A DNA stretch of 64,000 nt from Methylobacter sp. KS41 (lineage in GTDB: Bacteria; Pseudomonadota; Gammaproteobacteria; Methylococcales; Methylomonadaceae): the NCBI GenBank assembly GCA_002862125.1, contig PHSP01000004.1, positions 62,001-126,000 on the forward strand, written 5' to 3'. The notes beneath the pieces are model-generated. The model ran no database searches, was not told the origin of the DNA, and was given only the letters and a program-made list of their open reading frames with translations. A program made the translations under genes and the position numbers. Below, piece by piece: positions 38,277-61,170 of this stretch (position 1 is the first letter of the stretch; each line of letters begins with the position of its first letter).

Positions 38277-38814
38277 AACTCTAAAGCGAGAATAGAGATG
38301 CGATTATTCGTATCTCTACAACTTCTTATGCTTTTAATTGGCGGGCAATTAACGCAATTGGATCAATAATTTCCATTTTGATGCCACGCTCTTGATCAGG
38401 CTGCATTCAGGTTCTGGCGTAGAAAAGCTGGTTAAAAACACAAATGGCGACTATAACGGGACTTAAAGTTTCAGTTAAACCAGTAGTTATTTTTCCGGGA
38501 TGGTATATAGAACACCATAGAAATAATGAAGACTAGGCTTGGGTGCTGGAACCAAAAGCTTTGCCGACTTACATCGAAAACTCTAGAAATCGAATAAGCG
38601 AAGATAACGTTAGACTGGTTTCCAATCACTTATCCAGTTATATAAGAACAACTTGCGACAAATAGCTTTTAAATGTTATTTTGAATAATTCAATTGAAGT
38701 CGCGCATAAAAAATTTTCTTTTTGAAAATTACCCCCGCTTCTCTTTATTGCACTGAATAAAAAGCTAGCCTTGCTAATTTTTTATTCAGTGCATATACTA
38801 CCCCCGTAAAACTC
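38277..38814. other. Intergenic region between speD and the cobalamin riboswitch
   Basis: About 540 bp, AT-rich, with no credible gene. It holds an imperfect AGAGATGCGA-type inverted repeat near 38294-38317, a long hairpin at 38749-38793 and presumably the promoter of the cobalamin operon near 38790-38815. Confidence 0.5.
38749..38793. repeat. Long inverted repeat just upstream of the cobalamin riboswitch
   Basis: The 15-bp perfect arms TGCACTGAATAAAAA and TTTTTATTCAGTGCA enclose a 15-nt loop that itself contains TAGC/GCTA. T-runs on both strands suggest a bidirectional terminator separating speD from the cobalamin operon, or a small mobile repeat. Confidence 0.75.
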
Positions 38815-39025
38815 GCATCAGGTATTCGTGGACAATCAGTCCTAAGAATTGAAACGGGAAGCTGGTGAGTTCGCTATAACAGCAAACAAAGCCAGCGCTG
38901 CCCCCGCAACGGTAAACAAGTAGAAGATTTGCTCAAGCCACTGTGTCAACCATGGGAAGGCGCAAATCCCGGGACATTTCCCTGCTTGCAAGCCCGGAGA
39001 CCGGCCTGAGCCGATAATCGAATTT
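38815..39025 (+). promoter_or_regulatory. Cobalamin riboswitch
   Basis: It carries the conserved blocks in order: GGGAAGCTGGTGA, GCTGCCCCCGCAACGGTAA (38897-38915), AAGCCACTGTG (38935-38945), GGGAAGGC, and the B12 box AAGCCCGGAGACCGGCCTGA (38990-39009). It lies about 170 nt upstream of cbtB and should turn the whole downstream cobalt-transport and cobalamin operon off when adenosylcobalamin is plentiful. Confidence 0.95.
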
Positions 39026-46343: not shown

Positions 46344-46462
46344 CCCTCGCACCTTGGCAGATACTAGAAGTAATGTGACTAGTTATAACGCTTGAGAATT
46401 TATGATTTACAAACTAACAATTATGAAAAGGTTAATGACACCCTGGCGAATAAAATCCGGTT

Positions 46463-46504
46463 GTGGGAGCGACGCCCTCGTCGCGACGAGGGCGTCGCTC
46501 CCAC
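46463..46504. repeat. 42-nt perfect palindrome (REP-like) upstream of cbiE
   Basis: Each 21-nt arm (starting GTGGGAGCGACGCCCTCG) is the exact reverse complement of the other, with no loop. GTGGGAGCG ends are typical of REP-type repeats in gammaproteobacteria. It lies between the chelatase gene and cbiE, the largest gap (207 bp) in this part of the operon, and may act as an mRNA processing or stability element. Confidence 0.9.
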
Positions 46505-46550
46505 GAAATTTGTTAACAACTTTCACTGTAAAGATGTTTAAGGAACTGCA

Positions 46551-50860: not shown

Positions 50861-51639
50861 AAGTTTATTTTATCGGCGCCGGCCCCGGCGCTGCCGATTT
50901 GATTACCTTGCGCGGCGCGGCGATTCTGGGCCGGGTCGACATGGTGTTGTACGCCGGCTCTCTGGTGTCGAAGGATATGCTGGCGCATTGCAAAGTGGAT
51001 GCCGAAATAATCGATACCGCCCAGCTCGATTTGGAACAGCAGGAAGCCTGTTATCGACGTGCCCAGGCGCAGGGCATCGATGTCGCTCGTCTGCACTCCG
51101 GCGATCCCGCCATTTATGGCGCAACCGCCGAGCAAATGCGCCGCCTGGATGCGCTGGGCATTGCCTATGAAATCGTCCCCGGAGTATCGTCGTTTACTGC
51201 GGCGGCGGCCACTATCAAAGCTGAACTGACCAAGCCTGAAGTTTCACAAACCATCATTCTGACACGGGTTTCAGGCCGCGCCTCAGCCGTGCCGGAAAGT
51301 GAATCGATTGCGCTGCTCGCAGGACACCGTGCGACCCTATGCATTTTTTTGTCCGGCCCGCATTTGAAAAAGATTGTCGCCGATCTGCGTCTGCATTATC
51401 CCGACGACACGCCGGTCGCGTTGGTATACAGGGCAACGTGGCCGGAAGAAAGAACCCACCAGAGCACTTTAGGCCAGTTGCTTTCTGAAATCAAAAGCAG
51501 CGACTGGAATCTTACCACCATGCTCTTGGTGGGCGAAGCGCTGAGTACTCATTTACCGGCAGAATCCCGATTATATGCCAAGGATTACACGCATATTTTC
51601 CGGGTAGTGAAGAAACGCAAAACGACGACAGACGGATGA
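50857..51639 (+). CDS. cbiF: Cobalt-precorrin-4 C11-methyltransferase CbiF
   Basis: 260 residues: FIGAGPGAADLITLRGA, VLYAGSLVSKDML, LHSGDPAIYGATAEQM and VPGVSSFTAAAA are the family signatures. ATGA overlaps with cbiL upstream and cbiG downstream. Confidence 0.93.
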   Translation: MKVYFIGAGPGAADLITLRGAAILGRVDMVLYAGSLVSKDMLAHCKVDAEIIDTAQLDLEQQEACYRRAQAQGIDVARLHSGDPAIYGATAEQMRRLDALGIAYEIVPGVSSFTAAAATIKAELTKPEVSQTIILTRVSGRASAVPESESIALLAGHRATLCIFLSGPHLKKIVADLRLHYPDDTPVALVYRATWPEERTHQSTLGQLLSEIKSSDWNLTTMLLVGEALSTHLPAESRLYAKDYTHIFRVVKKRKTTTDG

Positions 51640-52400
51640 ACCGTGATACCGGTATCTGGCTGGTACGTCCGGAAAGCGAGGCGCTGGCCACGACGTTGCA
51701 AAAACAGTTGGGAGGTACGCTTTATCGGCCTTGGCTGAATCTCTCTGTCACGCAGAAAGACCAGTTTGCCGCCGCCTACCGATTGCACAAACAGTGGATC
51801 ATGATAGCGGCCAGCGGTATTGCCGTGCGTTTTCTGGATGGCTTGGCCCAGGACAAACACAGCGATCCGGCGGTAGTGGTGCTGGATGAAGCGGGGCGCT
51901 TTGCCGTTTCGCTGCTGGCAGGTCACGAAGGCGGCGCAAATCGCCTGGCTTATCGGGTCGCCAATGTTGTCGGCGCGGTGCCGGTGATTACGACGGCGAC
52001 CGAGGCATTAAAGCCTTTGGTAATCGGCATCGGTTGCCGCAAAGATGTTCCCGTTGCACGCATTACCGCCGCTGTTCAACAGGCGCTGGGTAACCGTCGC
52101 ATCAACGAAATACGCGAGATTGCAACCATAGACTTGAAAGCCAACGAGCCTGGGTTGCTTGAGTTTTGCGAGCAATACCAGCTTCCGCTGCGGGTTCTGG
52201 CTCACGAAACCGTTGCGGCGAGGGCGTGGGTAACGCAGCCATCGGACTGGGTGCAAAAAAATGTGGGACTGCCGGGCGTCTGTGAACCCTGCGCCTTGAT
52301 CGCCAGTCCGCGCGGCCGGTTAATTGTGCCAAAAGAGACATTGGATGGCGTTGCCGTGGCGGTAGTGGAAGATGACAAAAGATATGAAGAAAAGCTTTGA
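51636..52400 (+). CDS. cbiG: Cobalt-precorrin-5A hydrolase CbiG
   Basis: 254 residues. An N-terminal part (IMIAASGIAVRFL, DPAVVVLDEAGRFAVSLLAGHEGGAN) and a C-terminal CbiG domain (VIGIGCRKDVP, LKANEPGLLEF, LALASPRGRLIVPK-like) are both present, though the protein is shorter than the usual 330-350 residues. It opens the delta-lactone with loss of a two-carbon unit, a step specific to the early-cobalt route. Last gene before the inserted helicase. Confidence 0.9.
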   Translation: MNRDTGIWLVRPESEALATTLQKQLGGTLYRPWLNLSVTQKDQFAAAYRLHKQWIMIAASGIAVRFLDGLAQDKHSDPAVVVLDEAGRFAVSLLAGHEGGANRLAYRVANVVGAVPVITTATEALKPLVIGIGCRKDVPVARITAAVQQALGNRRINEIREIATIDLKANEPGLLEFCEQYQLPLRVLAHETVAARAWVTQPSDWVQKNVGLPGVCEPCALIASPRGRLIVPKETLDGVAVAVVEDDKRYEEKL

Positions 52401-52567
52401 AATGGGTTTAAACTTGCATTTGGGTCATAATAAATTTGAAGGTTCAAATAAACAAGGCTACAAGTCTTGTTACAATCCCATGATCAAATTGATGATTATC
52501 CATTAGACTTCAACGCCTTATAATCTCTGCTTTAACATTCACCCCACAGATTAAACCGGAAAAAAAT

Positions 52568-55500
52568 ATGCCCATCGAACAAGAACGACTCAGCTCGTTA
52601 ATAGAATTCGCCCAACAATCGGCGCGATTACGTGCAAAACTTGTATCTGATGTCAAACAGCACAATATTTTTCATGAATACGAGCGAGATATTGCTAATC
52701 TTCCTGGCTTAGATTTCAACGGAATTGACGATAACAAGGATGTATGGCTGGTCATTCAGCGATTACAAGAATCGCCCGCACCTTATCCAGCCAGTAATCT
52801 TTTGCGAATTTGGATTGATGTAACAAATAATCCCGCCAATGTGCCTGAGCTACGCACACATGTAACCGCAAAAACATTGCTGGAGATTGGAGCGATTGCC
52901 GCTCTGGAAACTGAGGTGAATTTTGATCCCGAACAGCTCATCTCCATTGATACATACGAACAAAAATCTACTGTCGAGGATGAATTAAAGTCGTATATTG
53001 AAAACCTCTGGAAACCATGGGCGCTTGAAGAAAAACGGCGGCGCCGGTCAATTTCTCTGTATGCCAAATTATTTACCCTGAAACAACAACTGGAGGGTGG
53101 AATTGTCGATAACCAAGTTGAATTAACTTGGGGTGCTGGAATAGCCGTATGGAATTTATCGGGCACCCAATTAACCTATCCGTTACTAACTCAGCAGGTT
53201 GAACTGTTACTTAACGAAACAACGATGGCGATTGAAATACGCCCGCGGGATATTGAACCCAAGTTGGAGTTAGATTTTTTTTCGGCCACAGATAATCCTG
53301 GGGTTTCTGCGCTGGATAAAATATCAAAAGATTTTTTTAGCGACACTTCAGTCACATTTTCACCGCTTGATTACAGTTCATTCGAGCCATTAATTCGGTC
53401 GGCTGTCATTCACCTTGATCCAAGCGGCGTCTTTTGGCCGAACCAGACAACAGCTGACGATAGAACAATTCCGCAACCGGATGAAAAACTCACAGTCACC
53501 AATACTTGGGTGTTATTTGCAAGACCACGTAGCGCCAGTTTATTTATACAGGATTTAGAGCGATTCAAGCAACAAATTGAAAATCTGAATACATTACCAA
53601 AAGCAGTCATGGCGTTGGTAACCGACCCTTCGATTACAAATCCGGAAATTTCTTTACCGGCATTTCGTGGTATATCAATGATTCATGGTAGCGGTCATTC
53701 AAACAGCTCTGCCGTGCAAGAATTATTTTTTCCAGATGCTTTCAACGATGAACAAGCTCAAATAGTCCAAAAACTCCAAGTCTACGATGGCGTCGTTGTA
53801 CAGGGGCCGCCGGGGACGGGAAAAACCCATACTATTGCCAATATCATCTGTCATTACTTGGCTCTTGGCCAACGGGTTTTGGTGACTTCAATGAAAGAAC
53901 CCGCACTCAATGTATTGAGAGAAAAATTGCCGGATAGGATTCAACCGCTTGCCATTAGTCTGCTGACTACTGAACAAGATGGTATGAAACAGTTTGAACA
54001 TTCAGTTTCCAAAATTGCTTCGGAGGTACAAGTTATTGATCGGGTGGCTTTTTCTCGGGAAATAGCGCAAATTGAAGCCAATATCGACAATTACCATGCC
54101 AAACTCGCCAAAACCGATGGTCAAATTAACGATTGGGCCATAAAAAATCTCAGTAATATCAATCTGGATGGAGAGCAGATAGAGCCTCGTGAGGCGGCTG
54201 CCGAAGTTGCAAATAATCGAGAAACCGTTGTGCGACTTGAAGATGCTATTTCCATTGGCGCGGAATTCCAGCCACGTTTCACAGATACCGATATAATCAA
54301 ACTTCGCGAATCGCGAAGGGCATTAGGTCAAGACATAGACTATCTGAATTGCAACTTACCGATGATTTCAGCTTTTCCAGATTCTCGTGAATTGCTGCGC
54401 ACCCATCAAGATTTATCCAGATACACAGAGCTTCAGTCCGAAATTGATTCCGGCGGCGTTCCATCATTGGCCAATTCATCCAAAGCCACATTTGAAGCGT
54501 CACAACTATTGTCTGAGCAAATTTCAAACCTAAAAAGGCTTCGCCAGTCGATTAGAAACGCTAATTTAGATTGGACTGAGGTAATGCTAATTCGCCTGCG
54601 CTCGAATAGAGAAAATGAAGTTTTGCAATTGTTCAACGCTCTGTCGATCGAATTTGAAACGGCTTTTGCAGAGCGCACCCAATTTTTAGCGAAGCCAGTA
54701 GAGCCTAGCGAAGGCATTGATGATCTAAATGACATTCTGATTAGTGCTATTCGCCGATGTGCAGAAGGAAAACGGCCTTTTGGCATCAGTGGAATAATAG
54801 GAAAAAACAACGAAAAACAATCTCTTAAAGCCATACGAATTAGCGGTTCTTTGCCTGCTAATCAGGACGATTGGCAACATATTCTCGCCTTTGCATCGCA
54901 TCGACGTTCTATTCGAACTTTATTAACTCGCTGGAATAGTTTGGCAAGTGAGCTTCGACTCCCTGCTATTGCTGTGGAACCTACTCAGGTAGCGGTTGTT
55001 ATCGACCAATTCAACCTGTATCGAAAGCTGGATGAAGTAGTGGCGCTTGAACACGAAATTGCAGCCAATGTGAAAACGGTCTGCCCTTCAAGGTCACAAG
55101 AAGACATCGTAAATAACCATGACGAAGCCTTGAACGAATTACAAAAGATTCTGCATCATCATTTAACCCAGCACAGGCTTGCTGATACTTGGGCGATAAA
55201 AGAACGATTTCAACAAATACTTTCTGGTTGTTCAGGTCGCATCACGATTGAGATAAAAAATTTTGTGGCTCAAACGCTTGGCAACCCTGCGGTAAACGAT
55301 GCCCGTCTGCAAGAGCAATGGTCGACGTTAATGGAGGAATTACGTCGAGTTCAAGGGCTAAATCAACATTTAGTAACCGTTGAGAGCGTTATCCAACTCA
55401 TTATCGAATCAGGCGCACCCCGTTGGGCAAATCTGCTTAGAAGTGAAGCCGTTACGTCGACAACGGACACTTTACTCCCGGATAATTGGCGGAAATTATG

Positions 55501-57211
55501 GCGTATCAATCGCCTTGCTAACTATCTTGAAACTATTGATGGGCGTGCAGAATTAAAACGGCTCGTTAAATTGCGGGCAGATATCGAAAACGATTTAGCT
55601 CGATCTTATCAAGACACAGTTGCTAAACGCACATGGCTAAAATTGGCGGAAAATGCTACACCCAGCGTCAAAGCTGCTTTGCAGGCTTATTTGGCTGCGA
55701 TAATGCGAATAGGAAGAGGCAGAGGAAGAAGGGTGCCGTTGTATCAAAGACAAGCGAGAAATGCGGCGGCGATGGCCACCCCGGCGATTCCTTGCTGGAT
55801 CATGCCTCATTACCGTGTCTCTGAATCTCTTCCTGCCGAATTTGGTTGCTTCGACCTCGTCATTATTGACGAAGCATCGCAATCTGACTTGTCGGCGTTA
55901 CCAGCGATATTTCGCGCCAAAAAAGTTTTGGTGGTAGGTGACGACAAGCAGGTTTCGCCCGATGGCTCTTTCATGGATACGCAAGCTATTCAGAACTTGG
56001 TTAACCGTTATCTGCTCGATCAATTCCCGATGTACCGTGATCAAATGACACCTGATCGATCCATCTACGATCTGTTCAAGGTGGTATTTGCCGATTCTGC
56101 CACGATGTTGAAAGAACATTTTCGATGTGTTGCGCCCATTATCGAATATTCGAAGCGAGAAGTTTATAAGCACGAGCTTAAGCCACTAAGAATTCCGAAA
56201 GCTTCAGAGCGTCTTGATCCTCCTTTGATAGATGTCATTATCGAAGATGGCTTCCGCAAAGGGGATATTAATCTGGGTGAAGCGCTTTATATCGTCAATG
56301 AAATCAAAGCTATCATTCAAGACCCTCGAATGAAGACCCGTTCTATAGGTGTGGTGTCTCTGTTAGGTGACAAACAGGCGTTAAAAATTTGGGAAATGCT
56401 CAATGCCGACGATCTCGATGAAGAGGGACTGCCGGTTGGCTTGCCTCCCGATATTATTGATCGGCATAAAATTGCCTGTGGCGATGCGCGTACTTTTCAA
56501 GGTAAAGAGAGAGACATTATGTTTTTATCGATGATTGTTTCCAAAGGAAATGCTAGTGCTTTATCACGAGATACTTTTATTCAACGATTCAATGTGGCGG
56601 CATCTCGTGCACGTGACCGAATGTATCTTGTTCGTAGTATTACAACAGACGATTTAAGTAATGCAGACTCACTACGCCGCAATTTGATTGCTCATTTTGC
56701 TGCGCCATTTGCTCAAGATGAGATTCGTGTTGAAAATCTTAAGGAGCTTTGCGAATCCGATTTTGAAAGAGAAGTGTATGACTTACTTACCGAACGTGGC
56801 TATCGTGTTATACCTCAAGTGAAATTTGGAGGTAAGGCAAACGGTTCTCATGAATTTCGTATCGACATGGTTGTTGAAGGCCATCAAGATAATCGTTTGG
56901 CTATCGAATGCGATGGTGATCGTTATCATGGGCCTGATCGTTGGGATGACGATATGCGTCGCCAGCGTATTTTGGAAAGAGCTGGATGGCGGTTTTGGCG
57001 TTGTTTTGCATCCACTTTTGTTATGCGTCGAGAAGAAGTTATTGATGATTTGCTGAAAACACTGAATGAGCTGGGTATTGAGCCGATTGGTACAGAGAGA
57101 GCAGGTCGTAGCCTTCATAGCCAACAACGTTTGTACTCAGCTTTCCCGATGAACCCAATTGATTCATTTTCACCAGAACTAGGCGAAATATCACGGCTAA
57201 ACATTGAATAA
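52568..57211 (+). CDS. Large SF1 helicase with C-terminal DUF559/Vsr-like nuclease; candidate defence gene
   Basis: 1547 residues. An N-terminal region of about 400 residues without a recognised domain is followed by an SF1 helicase core: Walker A GPPGTGKT (413-420), Walker B IIDEAS (D1101-E1102), motif around RTFQGKERDIMFLSM and motif VI NVAASRARDRMYLV. A long helical insertion (about 470-1060) splits the core. The C-terminus is an endonuclease of the DUF559/MTES_1575 type (D1433, E1447, D1449 in LAIECDGDRYHG, then the long helix with RILERAGWRFWR). Base composition is visibly AT-richer than the cobalamin genes around it. Proteins of this build are found among anti-phage candidates; no corrin function is expected. 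Confidence 0.82.
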   Translation: MPIEQERLSSLIEFAQQSARLRAKLVSDVKQHNIFHEYERDIANLPGLDFNGIDDNKDVWLVIQRLQESPAPYPASNLLRIWIDVTNNPANVPELRTHVTAKTLLEIGAIAALETEVNFDPEQLISIDTYEQKSTVEDELKSYIENLWKPWALEEKRRRRSISLYAKLFTLKQQLEGGIVDNQVELTWGAGIAVWNLSGTQLTYPLLTQQVELLLNETTMAIEIRPRDIEPKLELDFFSATDNPGVSALDKISKDFFSDTSVTFSPLDYSSFEPLIRSAVIHLDPSGVFWPNQTTADDRTIPQPDEKLTVTNTWVLFARPRSASLFIQDLERFKQQIENLNTLPKAVMALVTDPSITNPEISLPAFRGISMIHGSGHSNSSAVQELFFPDAFNDEQAQIVQKLQVYDGVVVQGPPGTGKTHTIANIICHYLALGQRVLVTSMKEPALNVLREKLPDRIQPLAISLLTTEQDGMKQFEHSVSKIASEVQVIDRVAFSREIAQIEANIDNYHAKLAKTDGQINDWAIKNLSNINLDGEQIEPREAAAEVANNRETVVRLEDAISIGAEFQPRFTDTDIIKLRESRRALGQDIDYLNCNLPMISAFPDSRELLRTHQDLSRYTELQSEIDSGGVPSLANSSKATFEASQLLSEQISNLKRLRQSIRNANLDWTEVMLIRLRSNRENEVLQLFNALSIEFETAFAERTQFLAKPVEPSEGIDDLNDILISAIRRCAEGKRPFGISGIIGKNNEKQSLKAIRISGSLPANQDDWQHILAFASHRRSIRTLLTRWNSLASELRLPAIAVEPTQVAVVIDQFNLYRKLDEVVALEHEIAANVKTVCPSRSQEDIVNNHDEALNELQKILHHHLTQHRLADTWAIKERFQQILSGCSGRITIEIKNFVAQTLGNPAVNDARLQEQWSTLMEELRRVQGLNQHLVTVESVIQLIIESGAPRWANLLRSEAVTSTTDTLLPDNWRKLWRINRLANYLETIDGRAELKRLVKLRADIENDLARSYQDTVAKRTWLKLAENATPSVKAALQAYLAAIMRIGRGRGRRVPLYQRQARNAAAMATPAIPCWIMPHYRVSESLPAEFGCFDLVIIDEASQSDLSALPAIFRAKKVLVVGDDKQVSPDGSFMDTQAIQNLVNRYLLDQFPMYRDQMTPDRSIYDLFKVVFADSATMLKEHFRCVAPIIEYSKREVYKHELKPLRIPKASERLDPPLIDVIIEDGFRKGDINLGEALYIVNEIKAIIQDPRMKTRSIGVVSLLGDKQALKIWEMLNADDLDEEGLPVGLPPDIIDRHKIACGDARTFQGKERDIMFLSMIVSKGNASALSRDTFIQRFNVAASRARDRMYLVRSITTDDLSNADSLRRNLIAHFAAPFAQDEIRVENLKELCESDFEREVYDLLTERGYRVIPQVKFGGKANGSHEFRIDMVVEGHQDNRLAIECDGDRYHGPDRWDDDMRRQRILERAGWRFWRCFASTFVMRREEVIDDLLKTLNELGIEPIGTERAGRSLHSQQRLYSAFPMNPIDSFSPELGEISRLNIE

Positions 57212-57422
57212 ATTGTCTATGAGTCGATGATAGGTGACGTAGCAACCGATTTATCTGTGCGCTTCGTACCTCGGCAACAGTTCATGCATTCCACGACTGC
57301 CTTCTGCTTCCTTATAGTCATCAGCGCGACTTCGCTTAATGTGAACCGTTTAAGTTTATAAATTTTCGTTACTAAAATATCGTGTCCTTCGTGAAAAAAA
57401 CAAACAATGTGAATATAACAAC

Positions 57423-58970
57423 ATGAAAGGTGTTTTAAATTTGGTTTCGGTAGGGCCCGGCTTTGCCGATTTGATCGTCCCGCGCGCTGAAGCGGCGTTG
57501 CGGGACAGTGATGTGATTGTCGCATATGAACTTTATCTGCGCTGGATTGAGCCTTGGCTGGCGAATAAGGAAATTCACACGCCGCCGCTGACTCAGGAAC
57601 GCGAGCGGGCCTTGCTGGCCATTGAAAAAGCCCGTAACGGCGCAAAAGTGGCGTTGATTTCCAGCGGCGATATTGGTATTTATGCCATGGCGGCGCTGGC
57701 TTTTGATGAAATGCGCGAGGATGACGAATACGACGTCAACGTGATTCCCGGCATTACCTCCGCCAGCGCCTGCGCTTCGCTATTGGGCTCGCCGTTGTCT
57801 CATGACTTCGCCACGCTAAGTCTGTCCGATTTGCTATGTCCGTGGGACTGGATTGAGCAGCGCGGCAGGCACATCGCCGAAGCCGATCTTGCCTGCGTGC
57901 TTTATAACGTGCAGAGCGCGGGCCGGTCGCAAGGCGTGTACCGCATCCTGAATATCATGCTGGAATCGAAAATGCCGCAAACCCTGTGCGGCGTGGTGCG
58001 CAATGCTTATCGACCCGGTCAGGAAGTCAGTATTTATCGTTTGGACGAGCTGCCATCCTTACAATTTGATATGCTCACCACCATCGTGATAGGCAATCGC
58101 TTTACCCGGCGTAAACGGGGATTTATCTTCACGCCGCGTGGTTATAACGCCTGGGAACCCGCTGCCGCAGAACTGGTCACACAGGATTTACCGGAGCAGG
58201 CGCTGTGGGTTTTTTCCGGCACCAGTGACGGCAATGCGCTCGCCAGCCGCCTGGCGGGGCAAGGTTATCCCGTTGTGGTCTCCACGGCCACCGGCTATGG
58301 TGGCGAGATAGCGGCCCGGCATTGCACTGGCGTATCGATATGGGTCGGACAGCAGGGCGTTGAAGCGCGCAGGCAGGCATTGCAGCATCATCAGGCGCGG
58401 GGATTGATCGACGCGACCCACCCTTACGCCAGCTTGATGTCGGAGCAATTGATGGGGCTGTCGAAAAGTCTTGGCATTCCGTATCTGCGCTATGAACGGG
58501 CCAGTTCCTTTTCAGCCGCTACCGGCCTGTTATGCGGGTCCGCGGAACAGGCGGCCGAGCAAGCCATTGCACGGGGCAAGCGCATTTTTTTGGCTACGGG
58601 CTCCAAGGATTTAGCGGCATTTCTTAAAGCGCCGGGCGCGGGAGAATGTGAATGGTTTGTACGCCTGACCCCTGAACCGGAATTTATCCAGCGCGCAATC
58701 GATTTGGGGGTGCCGCGCAGCCACATTTGCGCCATGCAAGGGCCGTTCTCGCAAGCTTTCAATGAGGCTTTGTGGCGGGATTGGGCGATTAATTGCGTCG
58801 TCACCAAGGATTCCGGCGATGCGGGCGGCTATCAGGCTAAAGCCGCCGCGGCACAGGCGCTGGCTATCCCGTTACTGGTCATTCAACGTCCAAAACTCAC
58901 CTATCCGCTGATCACTTCAAGTTTTGATGAGGTCGTCAAGCACGCACAAACATGGCAACACCCGGCATGA
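57423..58970 (+). CDS. cbiH/cbiJ: Fusion of cobalt-precorrin-3B C17-methyltransferase CbiH and precorrin-6A reductase CbiJ
   Basis: 515 residues. The first 245 or so are the methylase (SVGPGFADLIVPRAEAAL, SSGDIGIYAMAALAF, IPGITSASACASLLGSPL, LYNVQSAGRSQ). The rest is the reductase (VFSGTSDGNALASRL, GLIDATHPYASLMSEQL, FVRLTPEPEF, VVTKDSGDAGGYQAK). One polypeptide thus performs ring contraction/C17 methylation and a later reduction. The ATG at 57423 is 211 bp after the helicase stop; the stop overlaps the cobW start by 19 bp. Confidence 0.92.
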   Translation: MKGVLNLVSVGPGFADLIVPRAEAALRDSDVIVAYELYLRWIEPWLANKEIHTPPLTQERERALLAIEKARNGAKVALISSGDIGIYAMAALAFDEMREDDEYDVNVIPGITSASACASLLGSPLSHDFATLSLSDLLCPWDWIEQRGRHIAEADLACVLYNVQSAGRSQGVYRILNIMLESKMPQTLCGVVRNAYRPGQEVSIYRLDELPSLQFDMLTTIVIGNRFTRRKRGFIFTPRGYNAWEPAAAELVTQDLPEQALWVFSGTSDGNALASRLAGQGYPVVVSTATGYGGEIAARHCTGVSIWVGQQGVEARRQALQHHQARGLIDATHPYASLMSEQLMGLSKSLGIPYLRYERASSFSAATGLLCGSAEQAAEQAIARGKRIFLATGSKDLAAFLKAPGAGECEWFVRLTPEPEFIQRAIDLGVPRSHICAMQGPFSQAFNEALWRDWAINCVVTKDSGDAGGYQAKAAAAQALAIPLLVIQRPKLTYPLITSSFDEVVKHAQTWQHPA

Positions 58971-60082
58971 ATGCATTGATTCCCGTTACCATCGTCACCG
59001 GTTTTCTGGGTTCCGGCAAAACGACCCTGCTGAGCAGCTTGATTAAAGCCAGGCAGGACAGACGCCTCGCCTTGTTGATCAATGAGTTTGGTGAAGTTTC
59101 AATCGACGGCGCGCTGATGCGTGACTGCGCCGATGGCAATGAACACATCCGTATCCACGATTTTCCTCACGGCCTGATTGCCTACAGTGATGATAATTTT
59201 TTTGTTCCGGCCATGCAAGCCATTGTAGAGCGCCGCGCGCAGGTCGATCATGTCTTGATTGAAACTTCCGGTCTGGCCTTGCCCACGGCGGTTATGGAGT
59301 TATTGCAAACGCCTGAACTGGCGGAAGACTTTATTCTGGATGCGACCTTGGCGGTAGTCGATACTCCTTTATTGCTGGCTAATGAATTCGATGGGAATCA
59401 GGCTGCTTCAAGTCCCCAATCCGCTGTAGCTGCGCTGTTTGAGCAGCAACTGGAATACGCCGATGTTGTCGTCTTGAATAAAATCGATGCGCTGGATGAA
59501 GATGATTTGCTGCTGGCTGAAACGCGGGTCCGTGAGCGGGCTCCCAACGTGCGCTTCCTGGAACTGGCTTATCAGGCAAAACTGGATACTCGTCTCGCCT
59601 TGGGATTGCGTCTGCATCAACCGGCATTGACAGCGCATAGCCATCGTTTTACGCCGGTTGCCACTATGCCTGGAGATAATGCCCGCTTATTAGGCAATCA
59701 TGGCATCGTTGACGGCCATGCGCATTCAGGTCTCGCCAGTCACAGTCATGGCCTGGCAACGCACAAACATTTTCATGAACAGGACCCAGGCTGGCTGTCA
59801 TTCGTGCTGCGCAGCCAGGAACCGCAGCAGCCGGAAGCGCTAAAAACGGCGCTTGCCGAAACCGCCAAGTCGGAACCGGTGTTGCGCATCAAAGGTTTTA
59901 TTCTGACCGCTAATCCGGAGGACGCCATGCTCGTGCAAGGCGTCCGCGCCCGCATGATCATCAGCCGTTATGCTGAAAAAAAATCAGCACCGGCTTCAGA
60001 AATTGTTTTTATCGGTTATCATCTTAATCGAAATAAGGTAGCGGCGCTGTTGTCGCAAATGACGGCGACACAGTGGAAATAA
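58952..60082 (+). CDS. cobW: CobW-like COG0523 GTPase lacking the CxCC motif
   Basis: 376 residues. Walker A GFLGSGKTTL (residues 17-26), NEFGEVSIDGAL, Walker B IETSGLALP and NKID guanine motif (VVLNKIDAL) are intact, so it should bind and hydrolyse GTP. The metal-binding CxCC that normally follows Asn-Gly is replaced by L75-I-A77-Y78 (HGLIAYSDD). A His-rich segment at about 213-262 (HSHRF, HAHSGLASHSHGLATHKHFH) may supply metal ligands instead. CobW is thought to deliver cobalt for corrin synthesis. Confidence 0.87.
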   Translation: MATPGMNALIPVTIVTGFLGSGKTTLLSSLIKARQDRRLALLINEFGEVSIDGALMRDCADGNEHIRIHDFPHGLIAYSDDNFFVPAMQAIVERRAQVDHVLIETSGLALPTAVMELLQTPELAEDFILDATLAVVDTPLLLANEFDGNQAASSPQSAVAALFEQQLEYADVVVLNKIDALDEDDLLLAETRVRERAPNVRFLELAYQAKLDTRLALGLRLHQPALTAHSHRFTPVATMPGDNARLLGNHGIVDGHAHSGLASHSHGLATHKHFHEQDPGWLSFVLRSQEPQQPEALKTALAETAKSEPVLRIKGFILTANPEDAMLVQGVRARMIISRYAEKKSAPASEIVFIGYHLNRNKVAALLSQMTATQWK

Positions 60083-60148
60083 ACCCCGCAGCTCATTAGT
60101 GAATAACACTTTGATGGTCTAAGTATCTACTCAAATCATATCGCCGTC

Positions 60149-60171
60149 ATTCCGGCAGGGATTGCCGGAAT
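60149..60171. repeat. ATTCCGGCA hairpin repeat downstream of cobW
   Basis: The 9-bp arms ATTCCGGCA and TGCCGGAAT are separated by GGGAT. It is a REP-like hairpin in the non-coding stretch between cobW and the broken antitoxin gene. Confidence 0.65.
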
Positions 60172-60366
60172 CCAGAGCACAGGGATGTGCAAAACGGTAA
60201 GTGAGTTGTTAATATTGCCATCCATGGCTTCTGGATCTCGGCACAAATCTGTCTCGAATAGATTTATATTTACCCGAAGGGCGGCTGGCAGGATAGACTG
60301 TCGTGAATCCCTACAGAGATGACGGCTTCTGTAGGTATCTAATCATTTGGAGAAAAGGTTAGGATT

Positions 60367-60622
60367 ATGAAAGCTAATGAATTTGACAAACAATTTGATA
60401 AGAGAGATGACATCCTGAATGCCTTGGACTTAATCTAAGGCAAAGAGAGTTATGCAAGATCAGAAGTGTGTGAACGTTGACTTTCCTGCTTGGATGGTCG
60501 AGTCATTAGATAGAGAAGCCGACAGGGTTGGTGTAACGAGTCAGTCCATCATAAAAGTATGGTTAGCTGAACGCCTTGAAGAATTGGCTGCCAACAAAGC
60601 ATTACAGCGAACAAGCCGCTGA
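60367..60622 (+). pseudogene. CopG/ribbon-helix-helix antitoxin gene broken by a one-base frameshift
   Basis: Two frames together make one antitoxin. ATG 60367 encodes MKANEFDKQFDKRDDILNAL-DL and then hits TAA at 60436. From 60434 the next frame reads SKAKRVMQDQ and on through VNVDFPAWMVESLDREADR, VTSQSIIKVWLAERLEEL, ending at TGA 60622. One extra base at about 60433 restores the family pattern DLSKA when removed. An internal ATG at 60452 could still make a 56-residue RHH protein. No BrnT-like toxin lies upstream. Confidence 0.75.
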
Positions 60623-60648
60623 ATGCTTTACCCGCAACGCTTTGTAGT

Positions 60649-60665
60649 GGTACGCGATGCGCACC
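60649..60665. repeat. Hairpin repeat, GGTACGC-type (imperfect)
   Basis: GGTACGC-GAT-GCGCACC, one mismatch in 7-bp arms; related to the repeats at 15385 and 61237. It lies between the broken antitoxin and hicB. Confidence 0.5.
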
Positions 60666-60739
60666 TTACTTGGCTTCTATGGCTATAAACTGCCGGGAGC
60701 CTTACTTTATGGTCAAAAAAGAAAACTTGGAGAAATTAT

Positions 60740-60946
60740 ATGAGATTCAGTGTAACAATCGATCGTGACGAAGACGGTATCTGGGTCGTCGAATGTCCGG
60801 CTATCCCTGGTTGCGTTACTCAAGGTCAGACTAAGGAAGAGGCACTGGAAAACATCCGGGATGCAATTTCTCAGTGCCTTCAAGTACGTGCCGAGCTTGG
60901 GTTGCCATTGACAATTGAGACTCGCCAAGTCGAGGTGGCAGCATAA
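60740..60946 (+). CDS. hicB: HicB-family antitoxin
   Basis: 68 residues, the degenerate RNase-H-like HicB fold (RFSVTIDRDEDGIWVVECPAIPGCVTQGQTKEEAL). GGAGAAA precedes the ATG. It has no separate C-terminal DNA-binding domain, so it is a short-form HicB. The stop overlaps the hicA start (TAATG), giving a hicB-hicA order. Confidence 0.9.
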   Translation: MRFSVTIDRDEDGIWVVECPAIPGCVTQGQTKEEALENIRDAISQCLQVRAELGLPLTIETRQVEVAA

Positions 60947-61170
60947 TGTCGCCTTCGCTCCCCGTTCTCAGCGGACGCGAAGTTGTCCGTGCATTTGAAT
61001 CGTTGGGATGGCAGGTTGCGCGGCAAAGCGGGAGCCATATCATCATGGTCAAAGAGAGTGAAATGACGACGTTATCGATTCCCGACCATCGGGAAGTCGC
61101 AAAGGGAACGTTACGAAGCCTGATTCGCGCTGCTGGTATCACAGTAAGCGAGTTTATCGCAAGAACGTAA
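60946..61170 (+). CDS. hicA: HicA-family mRNA interferase toxin
   Basis: 74 residues with the double-stranded-RNA-binding-like fold and the catalytic His in RQSGSHIIM. LSIPDHREVAKGTLRSLIRAAGI is the family C-terminus. It degrades mRNA when not bound by HicB. The module sits within the cobalamin operon, between cobW and cbiA. Confidence 0.92.
   Translation: MSPSLPVLSGREVVRAFESLGWQVARQSGSHIIMVKESEMTTLSIPDHREVAKGTLRSLIRAAGITVSEFIART

Follow-up and report, generated by a model that had tools for sequence, protein, structure and literature searches.

Why does a single gene for a large helicase-nuclease stand in the middle of a cobalamin biosynthesis region? The locus lies in a stretch of 64,000 nucleotides from Methylobacter sp. 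KS41 (contig PHSP01000004.1, positions 62001–126000 of the forward strand), which was analyzed as a whole and is referred to as the window. A sequence-only reading had proposed that the gene was inserted between cobalamin genes and encodes a plausible anti-phage system. Our results point to a horizontally acquired single-protein anti-phage (or anti-plasmid) helicase-nuclease, similar to the PDC-S37 family of PADLOC, which was probably dropped into the junction between cbiG and a fused cbiH-cbiJ gene (cbiHJ). Judging by the sequence comparisons, we put the probability of this explanation at roughly 75%.

The cbiG–cbiHJ junction

The gene is an intact open reading frame (ORF) for 1547 amino acids without internal stops, and it is the only gene between its two cobalamin neighbors, as had been claimed. 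The elements of the junction are the following:

52568–57211, plus strand: helicase-nuclease gene (ORF list, Pfam, PADLOC, NCBIfam, and 69-sequence alignment)
51636–52400, plus strand: cbiG, intact, left flank of the insert (Pfam CbiG_N and CbiG_C)
57423–58970, plus strand: cbiHJ fusion gene, right flank (Pfam TP_methylase and CbiJ)
52401–52567, plus strand: leader of the insert, 167 bp; not repeated elsewhere in the genome at E ≤ 0.001, and no richer in promoter-like matches than expected by chance
57212–57422, plus strand: trailer of the insert, 211 bp; similarity to the DNA of the relatives resumes near its 3′ end

The cobalamin genes had been described as running with 4-bp overlaps up to cbiG and resuming with cbiH at 57423. 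From 46551 to cbiG, this overlap was found at four of the five gene junctions, the remaining one being a 19-bp gap. The downstream position was correct, but the gene there is the cbiH-cbiJ fusion and not cbiH alone. The helicase-nuclease gene is indeed AT-richer than its surroundings: its G+C content (GC) is 0.439 and its third-position value (GC3) 0.377, compared with 0.53–0.59 and 0.55–0.67 in the 11 other genes of 39317–60082. Because the mean GC of the whole window is 0.492 and the stretch 60000–60999 goes down to 0.456, the AT-richness by itself is weak evidence.

The junction was compared in ten genomes besides the host. These were chosen from 101 genomes searched with the cbiHJ protein, the match having at least 52% identity over both the CbiH and the CbiJ parts (in G070 as two pieces). 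Within the stretches fetched, about 0.9–1.5 kb upstream of cbiHJ in each relative, none of the ten carried the helicase-nuclease. cbiG directly precedes cbiHJ in seven of them, and it was not found in the fetched stretches of the other three (G048, G031, and G026). The spacer between the two genes is −4 bp in G056, G040, and G070, outside the genus, and 119–189 bp in the four congeners G021, G013, G019, and G034, as compared with about 5 kb in the window. The ancestral junction was therefore most simply a 4-bp overlap, and the junction of the congeners was opened. Searching the ten relatives with the DNA of the gene yielded a single short match (71%), located on another contig of G013. DNA similarity between the window and the relatives ends at ~52373, about 27 bp inside the 3′ end of cbiG, and resumes at ~57403–57417, 6–20 bp ahead of the cbiHJ start. 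These comparisons support the proposed insertion of the gene between cbiG and cbiHJ. Conservation of the gene at this junction in all relatives, which would have refuted an insertion, was not observed.

Two causes and one target of the insertion were considered and rejected. Terminal repeats were dismissed, as neither of the two edge segments recurs in the genome at E ≤ 0.001. An integrase or other mobility gene was likewise dismissed, with no recombinase among the 14 neighbor proteins in the window (Pfam). Inspection by eye revealed TTCGTG-type repeats in the spacers of four congeners (L032, L033, L034, and L036); this repeat was rejected as a target, being absent from the window at up to three mismatches, and exact matching did not recover a degenerate form of it from the host genome. 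The landing site in a cobalamin operon is unusual. It offers a clean case of one defence-type gene in a compact biosynthetic operon, for which relatives preserve both empty and half-opened junctions.

Architecture and nearest known proteins

The split superfamily 1 (SF1) helicase core put forward earlier was recovered in Pfam as two halves, AAA_11 (residues 392–554) and AAA_12 (residues 1175–1355), which together with Walker A, motif II, and motif VI identify a UPF1-like SF1 helicase. The nuclease had been described as DUF559/Vsr-like. The Vsr-like assignment held, with MTES_1575 (PF18741) at 101.3 bits versus a cut-off of 38.2, whereas the DUF559 match remained below its cut-off (18.5 versus 20.6 bits). 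Conservation was assessed on 69 full-length sequences: the window protein, 67 of the 80 loci from a scan of species-representative genomes, and the plasmid locus L142. In most of the 13 loci left out, which include L072, a contig end truncates the gene or stops shorten it. The alignment contains 150 invariant positions, and the protein is laid out as follows:

52568–53737, plus strand: N-terminal region, residues 1–390; moderately conserved across the family, no Pfam match
53804–53827, plus strand: Walker A GPPGTGKT, residues 413–420; seven of eight positions invariant in the 69 sequences, G416 present in 68
53975–55747, plus strand: insertion between the helicase halves, mostly helical, residues about 470–1060 (~600 amino acids), from the alignment and predicted structure
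55868–55879, plus strand: motif II DEAS, residues 1101–1104; invariant in 69 of 69
56603–56620, plus strand: SRARDR, residues 1346–1351, which we take to be motif VI; S1346, R1347, A1348, and R1351 invariant in 69 of 69, R1349 not
56762–57064, plus strand: Vsr-like PD-(D/E)xK domain MTES_1575, residues 1399–1499 (Pfam); D1433, E1447, and D1449 invariant in 69 of 69

By analogy with the fold, D1433, E1447, and D1449 would be the catalytic set of the nuclease. Walker A (at seven of its eight positions), DEAS, and these three residues are invariant; therefore, the helicase and nuclease activities both look selected. None of the 11 Pfam matches at E 0.01 was HEPN or DUF4011, although a divergent HEPN could escape at this limit, and a DUF4011/HEPN identity of the N-terminus was rejected on this result. 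Transglutaminase and winged helix-turn-helix (wHTH) domains gave no match in the window protein at the same limit. Some family members have a DUF3320 C-terminal extension (above the cut-off in L118, below it in L062), which the window protein does not carry.

In UPF1-like SF1 helicases, a stalk and a 1B β-barrel precede motif I. The structure predicted for residues 1–476 contains a long helix (133–176) followed by β-strands (184–226), with a mean predicted local distance difference test (pLDDT) value of 78.5 and a predicted template modeling score (pTM) of 0.62. No PDB entry matched this model at E ≤ 0.001. The best match, Upf1, was weak and non-significant (E 7.9e-3, TM-score 0.16), and the likeness of the modeled N-terminus to the Upf1 fold is suggestive only. 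For residues 380–1547 the mean pLDDT was 80.1, and the domain placement is unsure because the pTM was only 0.54. This second model matched SETX, UPF1, IGHMBP2, and Dna2 with E-values of 1e-10 to 1e-8 (best 1.7e-10), and also Sen1. The TM-scores were low, about 0.2 on the query, a result to be expected when a long insertion divides the core. Profile comparison also indicated a UPF1/SETX/IGHMBP2/Dna2-type core.

Among the PADLOC profiles, PDC-S37 (PDLC05009) was the best match (198 bits; residues 396–1502 against profile positions 298–1341 of 1550), with the helicase core, helical insertion, and nuclease all aligned. The match covers 1044 of the 1550 positions and lacks the last 209. PDC-S37 was matched by all 24 members scanned (the window protein and 23 homologues, from about residue 380) and had the lowest best E-value of the six families listed in that scan; the Hhe and Mokosh models were also among the PADLOC family matches. 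PDC-S37 is a candidate single-protein defence family by name, PDC denoting such a candidate. A literature search covering few subscription journals returned no paper naming PDC-S37 and no experimental paper on the family.

Hhe proteins combine HEPN, helicase, and Vsr endonuclease, the HEPN domain being the defining one. The window protein shares with Hhe (NCBIfam NF042953) the SF1 helicase and MTES_1575/Vsr-like nuclease in one polypeptide, but it scored 153 bits versus a cut-off of 2000, about a thirteenth, and has no HEPN/DUF4011 match at E 0.01. The anti-phage protein ProA (NCBIfam NF058533) matched residues 396–1503 with 204 bits, about a seventh of its 1500-bit cut-off, the matched stretch beginning at position 654 of a 1903-position model. 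Since these scores are far below the cut-offs, the gene was not filed under either family. It is closest to PDC-S37 and related to, but outside, Hhe and ProA; it is one more candidate defence protein of a kind already catalogued. From its anatomy, it would be expected to work like the Hhe and ProA single-polypeptide helicase-nucleases.

Two published systems resemble this arrangement, as far as the excerpts of the papers describe them. The MTES_1575 protein of Microbacterium testaceum is an SF-I helicase with a Vsr-type nuclease domain, both shared with the window protein; it also has HEPN, transglutaminase, and wHTH domains (PMC3710099, excerpt), which are unmatched here. In Type III-B CoCoNuTs, the CnuH helicase carries a coiled-coil helical insertion and a directly fused Vsr-like nuclease, an anatomy close to that of the window protein (PMC11090510, excerpt). 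According to the same excerpt, these systems are predicted to target RNA, and CoCoNuTs include McrB and McrC homologues. The window gene differs in being flanked on both sides by cobalamin genes, with no McrB- or McrC-like protein among its 14 neighbors, which are mostly cobalamin genes (Pfam).

The domain layout suggests how such a protein might act. The UPF1-like SF1 motor would load on single-stranded nucleic acid of an invader, with DNA at replication forks or ends as the most likely substrate, and would translocate by using ATP. Sensing or holding this substrate and keeping the nuclease in check may fall to the N-terminal region and the 600-residue helical insertion. Substrate engagement would then allow the C-terminal Vsr-like PD-(D/E)xK domain to cut. 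The substrate, polarity, gating, and anti-phage outcome in this scheme are those we infer for the protein.

Family distribution and competing explanations

Scanning one genome per species gave 99 confirmed loci, of which 80 were kept (best segments 39–54% identical). The family reaches many phyla and also plasmids, and it appears to be a large family whose 1500-residue design would fit one construct. Within the host family, the gene is present at E ≤ 1e-100 in 12 of 201 genomes, host included. Two of these copies are partial or split, and the best full-length copy outside the host (G101) is 64% identical. Loosening the limit to E ≤ 0.001, at which other helicase-nucleases are caught as well, gave matches in 18 of 101 genomes, the host among them. 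In a quick tree built from 69 rows, the window paired with a Bacteroidota metagenome-assembled genome (MAG) at a support of 86 and with long branches. A copy from a congener (L074) fell inside a starred clade of 29 rows, apart from the window. The exact place of the window in the tree is unsure, because it is in none of the starred sets that comprise up to half of the rows, and MAG labels in the tree can be wrong; the proteins of L074, a Crenothrix polyspora MAG, and of the congener G024 are identical. The sporadic presence and the discordant tree speak against a housekeeping role.

Of 398 plasmid records with a match, 24 cover at least 80% of the query. There was one weak match (31% of the query) among 50,697 phage records and one near-full-length relative in a collection of viral contigs, and phage carriage of the family was rejected on these counts. 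A Gracilibacteria genome (L072:10001–14509) showed a short ORF at the gene start under translation table 11. Under table 25, the 1503 codons of the matched stretch read through without a stop, 20 TGA codons being translated as Gly; the locus is missing from the alignment because its organism reads TGA otherwise. As the stretch is open only under the variant code, the gene would have been kept and recoded there, which fits selection for function, and this copy seems to be functional by its sequence.

The neighborhoods of the homologues were examined at 47 of the 80 loci, which gave 252 flank proteins; 191 of these proteins were scanned (83 + 108); the 61 left out came mainly from genera already represented, plus L072. 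No cluster of flank proteins extended beyond five of the 47 loci, and six of the seven largest were confined to one genus or close kin; a conserved genomic partner was rejected on this clustering. The best 25 of 111 and the best 25 of 110 Pfam families on the flanks were mainly metabolic, with three phage-integrase and two AbiEii matches. For 11 host-family loci (56 flank proteins), PADLOC matched PD-T7-5, PD-T7-1, and type I restriction with one member each, and no Pfam defence family was found in ten neighbors of two of the closest host-family copies.

Seven plasmid places were inspected (L141, L142, and L168–L172). In L141, L168, and L172, on plasmids typed as conjugative, the gene is preceded by a methyltransferase and a restriction gene. 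In L171, on a plasmid typed as non-mobilizable, it follows brxL of a BREX system. In L142, a gene set that includes a DUF4194 product, and which we take to be Wadjet-like, is found at a distance of 5 kb, and in L169 an AbiEii-type toxin gene at 6 kb; L170 carries no annotation. Next to the relative from the viral collection, names assigned by eye point to a serine recombinase 3 kb on the left and an HsdM-type methyltransferase immediately on the right. Defence settings thus occur, most clearly on mobile elements, there is no widely recurring partner, and the window copy stands alone.

The likeness to the PDC-S37, Hhe, and Mokosh models and some of these neighborhoods make the suggested single-gene anti-phage system plausible, and the protein would accordingly be a candidate for defence. 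Several findings weigh on the other side. Defence genes were absent among the 14 neighbor proteins in the window (Pfam, and NCBIfam for seven of them). On the homologue flanks, no PADLOC family matched more than one of 83 and two of 108 proteins (the best 25 of 67 and the best 25 of 90 families, ranked by members; these figures count members per family, not defence proteins per locus), and the flank proteins of chromosomal homologues are largely ordinary. The PDC-S37 match leaves out the first 395 residues of the window protein. Furthermore, there are broken relatives: G013 has a stop within the matched stretch, G153 is split, and the plasmid copy L141 is interrupted by a transposase gene. Such copies would suit a decaying passenger, acquired and no longer functional. 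For the window gene this is quite improbable, because its ORF is intact over 1547 codons and stands among 69 sequences sharing invariant residues.

If the protein is a defence effector, it may instead target RNA, with the motor running on transcripts and the nuclease cleaving RNA to cause dormancy on infection. This variant is possible, though we lean against it. The best structural matches are mainly RNA helicases (SETX, UPF1, and IGHMBP2), and the predicted RNA-targeting Type III-B CoCoNuT fuses a Vsr-like nuclease to a helicase (PMC11090510, excerpt); however, the DNA enzyme Dna2 matches nearly as well, and neither a HEPN domain at 0.01 nor an McrB/McrC homologue among the 14 neighbor proteins was detected. 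A horizontally spread helicase-nuclease of DNA repair or recombination (Dna2-like or Vsr-like), without an anti-phage role, seems improbable to us. The core resembles Dna2, SETX, and IGHMBP2, the nuclease has the Vsr repair fold, and many flank genes of the homologues are metabolic among the families listed. Against this stand the patchy occurrence (12 of 201 family genomes at E ≤ 1e-100) and discordant tree, the distant plasmid copies, which adjoin restriction genes where the plasmid is conjugative and follow BREX in another case, and the best profile match, which lies in a defence library. That the gene is an integral member of the cobalamin operon, under the control of B12 metabolism or in its service, is scarcely credible. 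The gene shares its strand with cbiG and cbiHJ and lies between them, with a riboswitch upstream and no terminator-like site at either edge; yet it is missing upstream of cbiHJ in all ten relatives, and these empty junctions make such a role unlikely. Moreover, none of 12 host-family homologue contexts (3.5 to 17 kb each) matched the cobalamin-region proteins of the window, and no flank family was common to more than five of the 47 homologue loci.

Regulation and the companion gene

The sequence-only reading had expected the gene to be transcribed from a B12-controlled operon unless it has a promoter of its own in 52401–52567. Two elements upstream bear on this:

38803–39023, plus strand: cobalamin riboswitch aptamer RF00174, 108.7 bits versus a gathering score of 31.5
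46461–46506, plus strand: terminator-like hairpin with a 20-bp stem and a poor T run; two overlapping sites found, 0.5 expected in shuffles

The riboswitch lies 13.5 kb upstream of the gene, and no other cobalamin riboswitch in the window reaches the gathering score. The hairpin separates the riboswitch-proximal block, made up of cbtA (39317), cobN (40418), and a chelatase AAA/VWA gene (44265), from the methyltransferase block, and it could be a terminator or a repeat element; at the other end, a cobW-type gene comes next after cbiHJ (all by Pfam). Promoter-like matches were no more frequent than by chance in 52300–52700 (one versus 1.3 expected), and 57150–57500 contained one, on the minus strand, versus 0.6 expected. 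Neither region contained a terminator-like site. B12 control of the gene is unproven.

Some homologues have a small companion gene or a part of it:

L066:9479–9985, L068:9458–9970, and L074:933–1472, just upstream of the helicase gene: companion gene, 169–180 amino acids
L142:12489–12665, just downstream of the helicase gene: N-terminal module of the companion alone (tblastn E 3e-5)
L097:9701–9913, N-terminus of the helicase ORF: N-terminal module of the companion (domain E 4e-8; L097 not in the profile)

In L066 and L068, 12 bp lie between the end of the companion and the first start codon of the helicase ORF; in L074, the companion overlaps the longest helicase ORF at the 5′ end of the latter. 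By eye, it consists of a conserved N-terminal module, a CxxC..CxxC zinc ribbon, and a hydrophobic C-terminus. When searched with the L074 protein, the genome of the window yielded no copy of the companion.

A broader proposal, which we regard as speculative and rather unlikely, is that these proteins form an unnamed, phylum-crossing clade of stand-alone helicase-nuclease immune proteins. They would travel as single-gene cargo, settle in core operons, and rely on the transcription of these, which here would couple immunity to B12 status, and some lineages would have gained a zinc-ribbon membrane-anchored adaptor (upstream, or with its N-terminal module alone downstream or fused). If this were true, the adaptor would imply a membrane-tethered form of the same machine. 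The clade is not named in the excerpts of PMC3710099, PMC10250203, PMC11090510, and PMC12458937, nor was it found by a term search of PMC8565338 and PMC12839542. The N-terminal module of the companion was also matched in a DEAD/DEAH box helicase gene on a Xanthomonas plasmid (NZ_LR828258.1:123790–124047; 35% identity, E 4e-4), and therefore the module may serve other helicases too.

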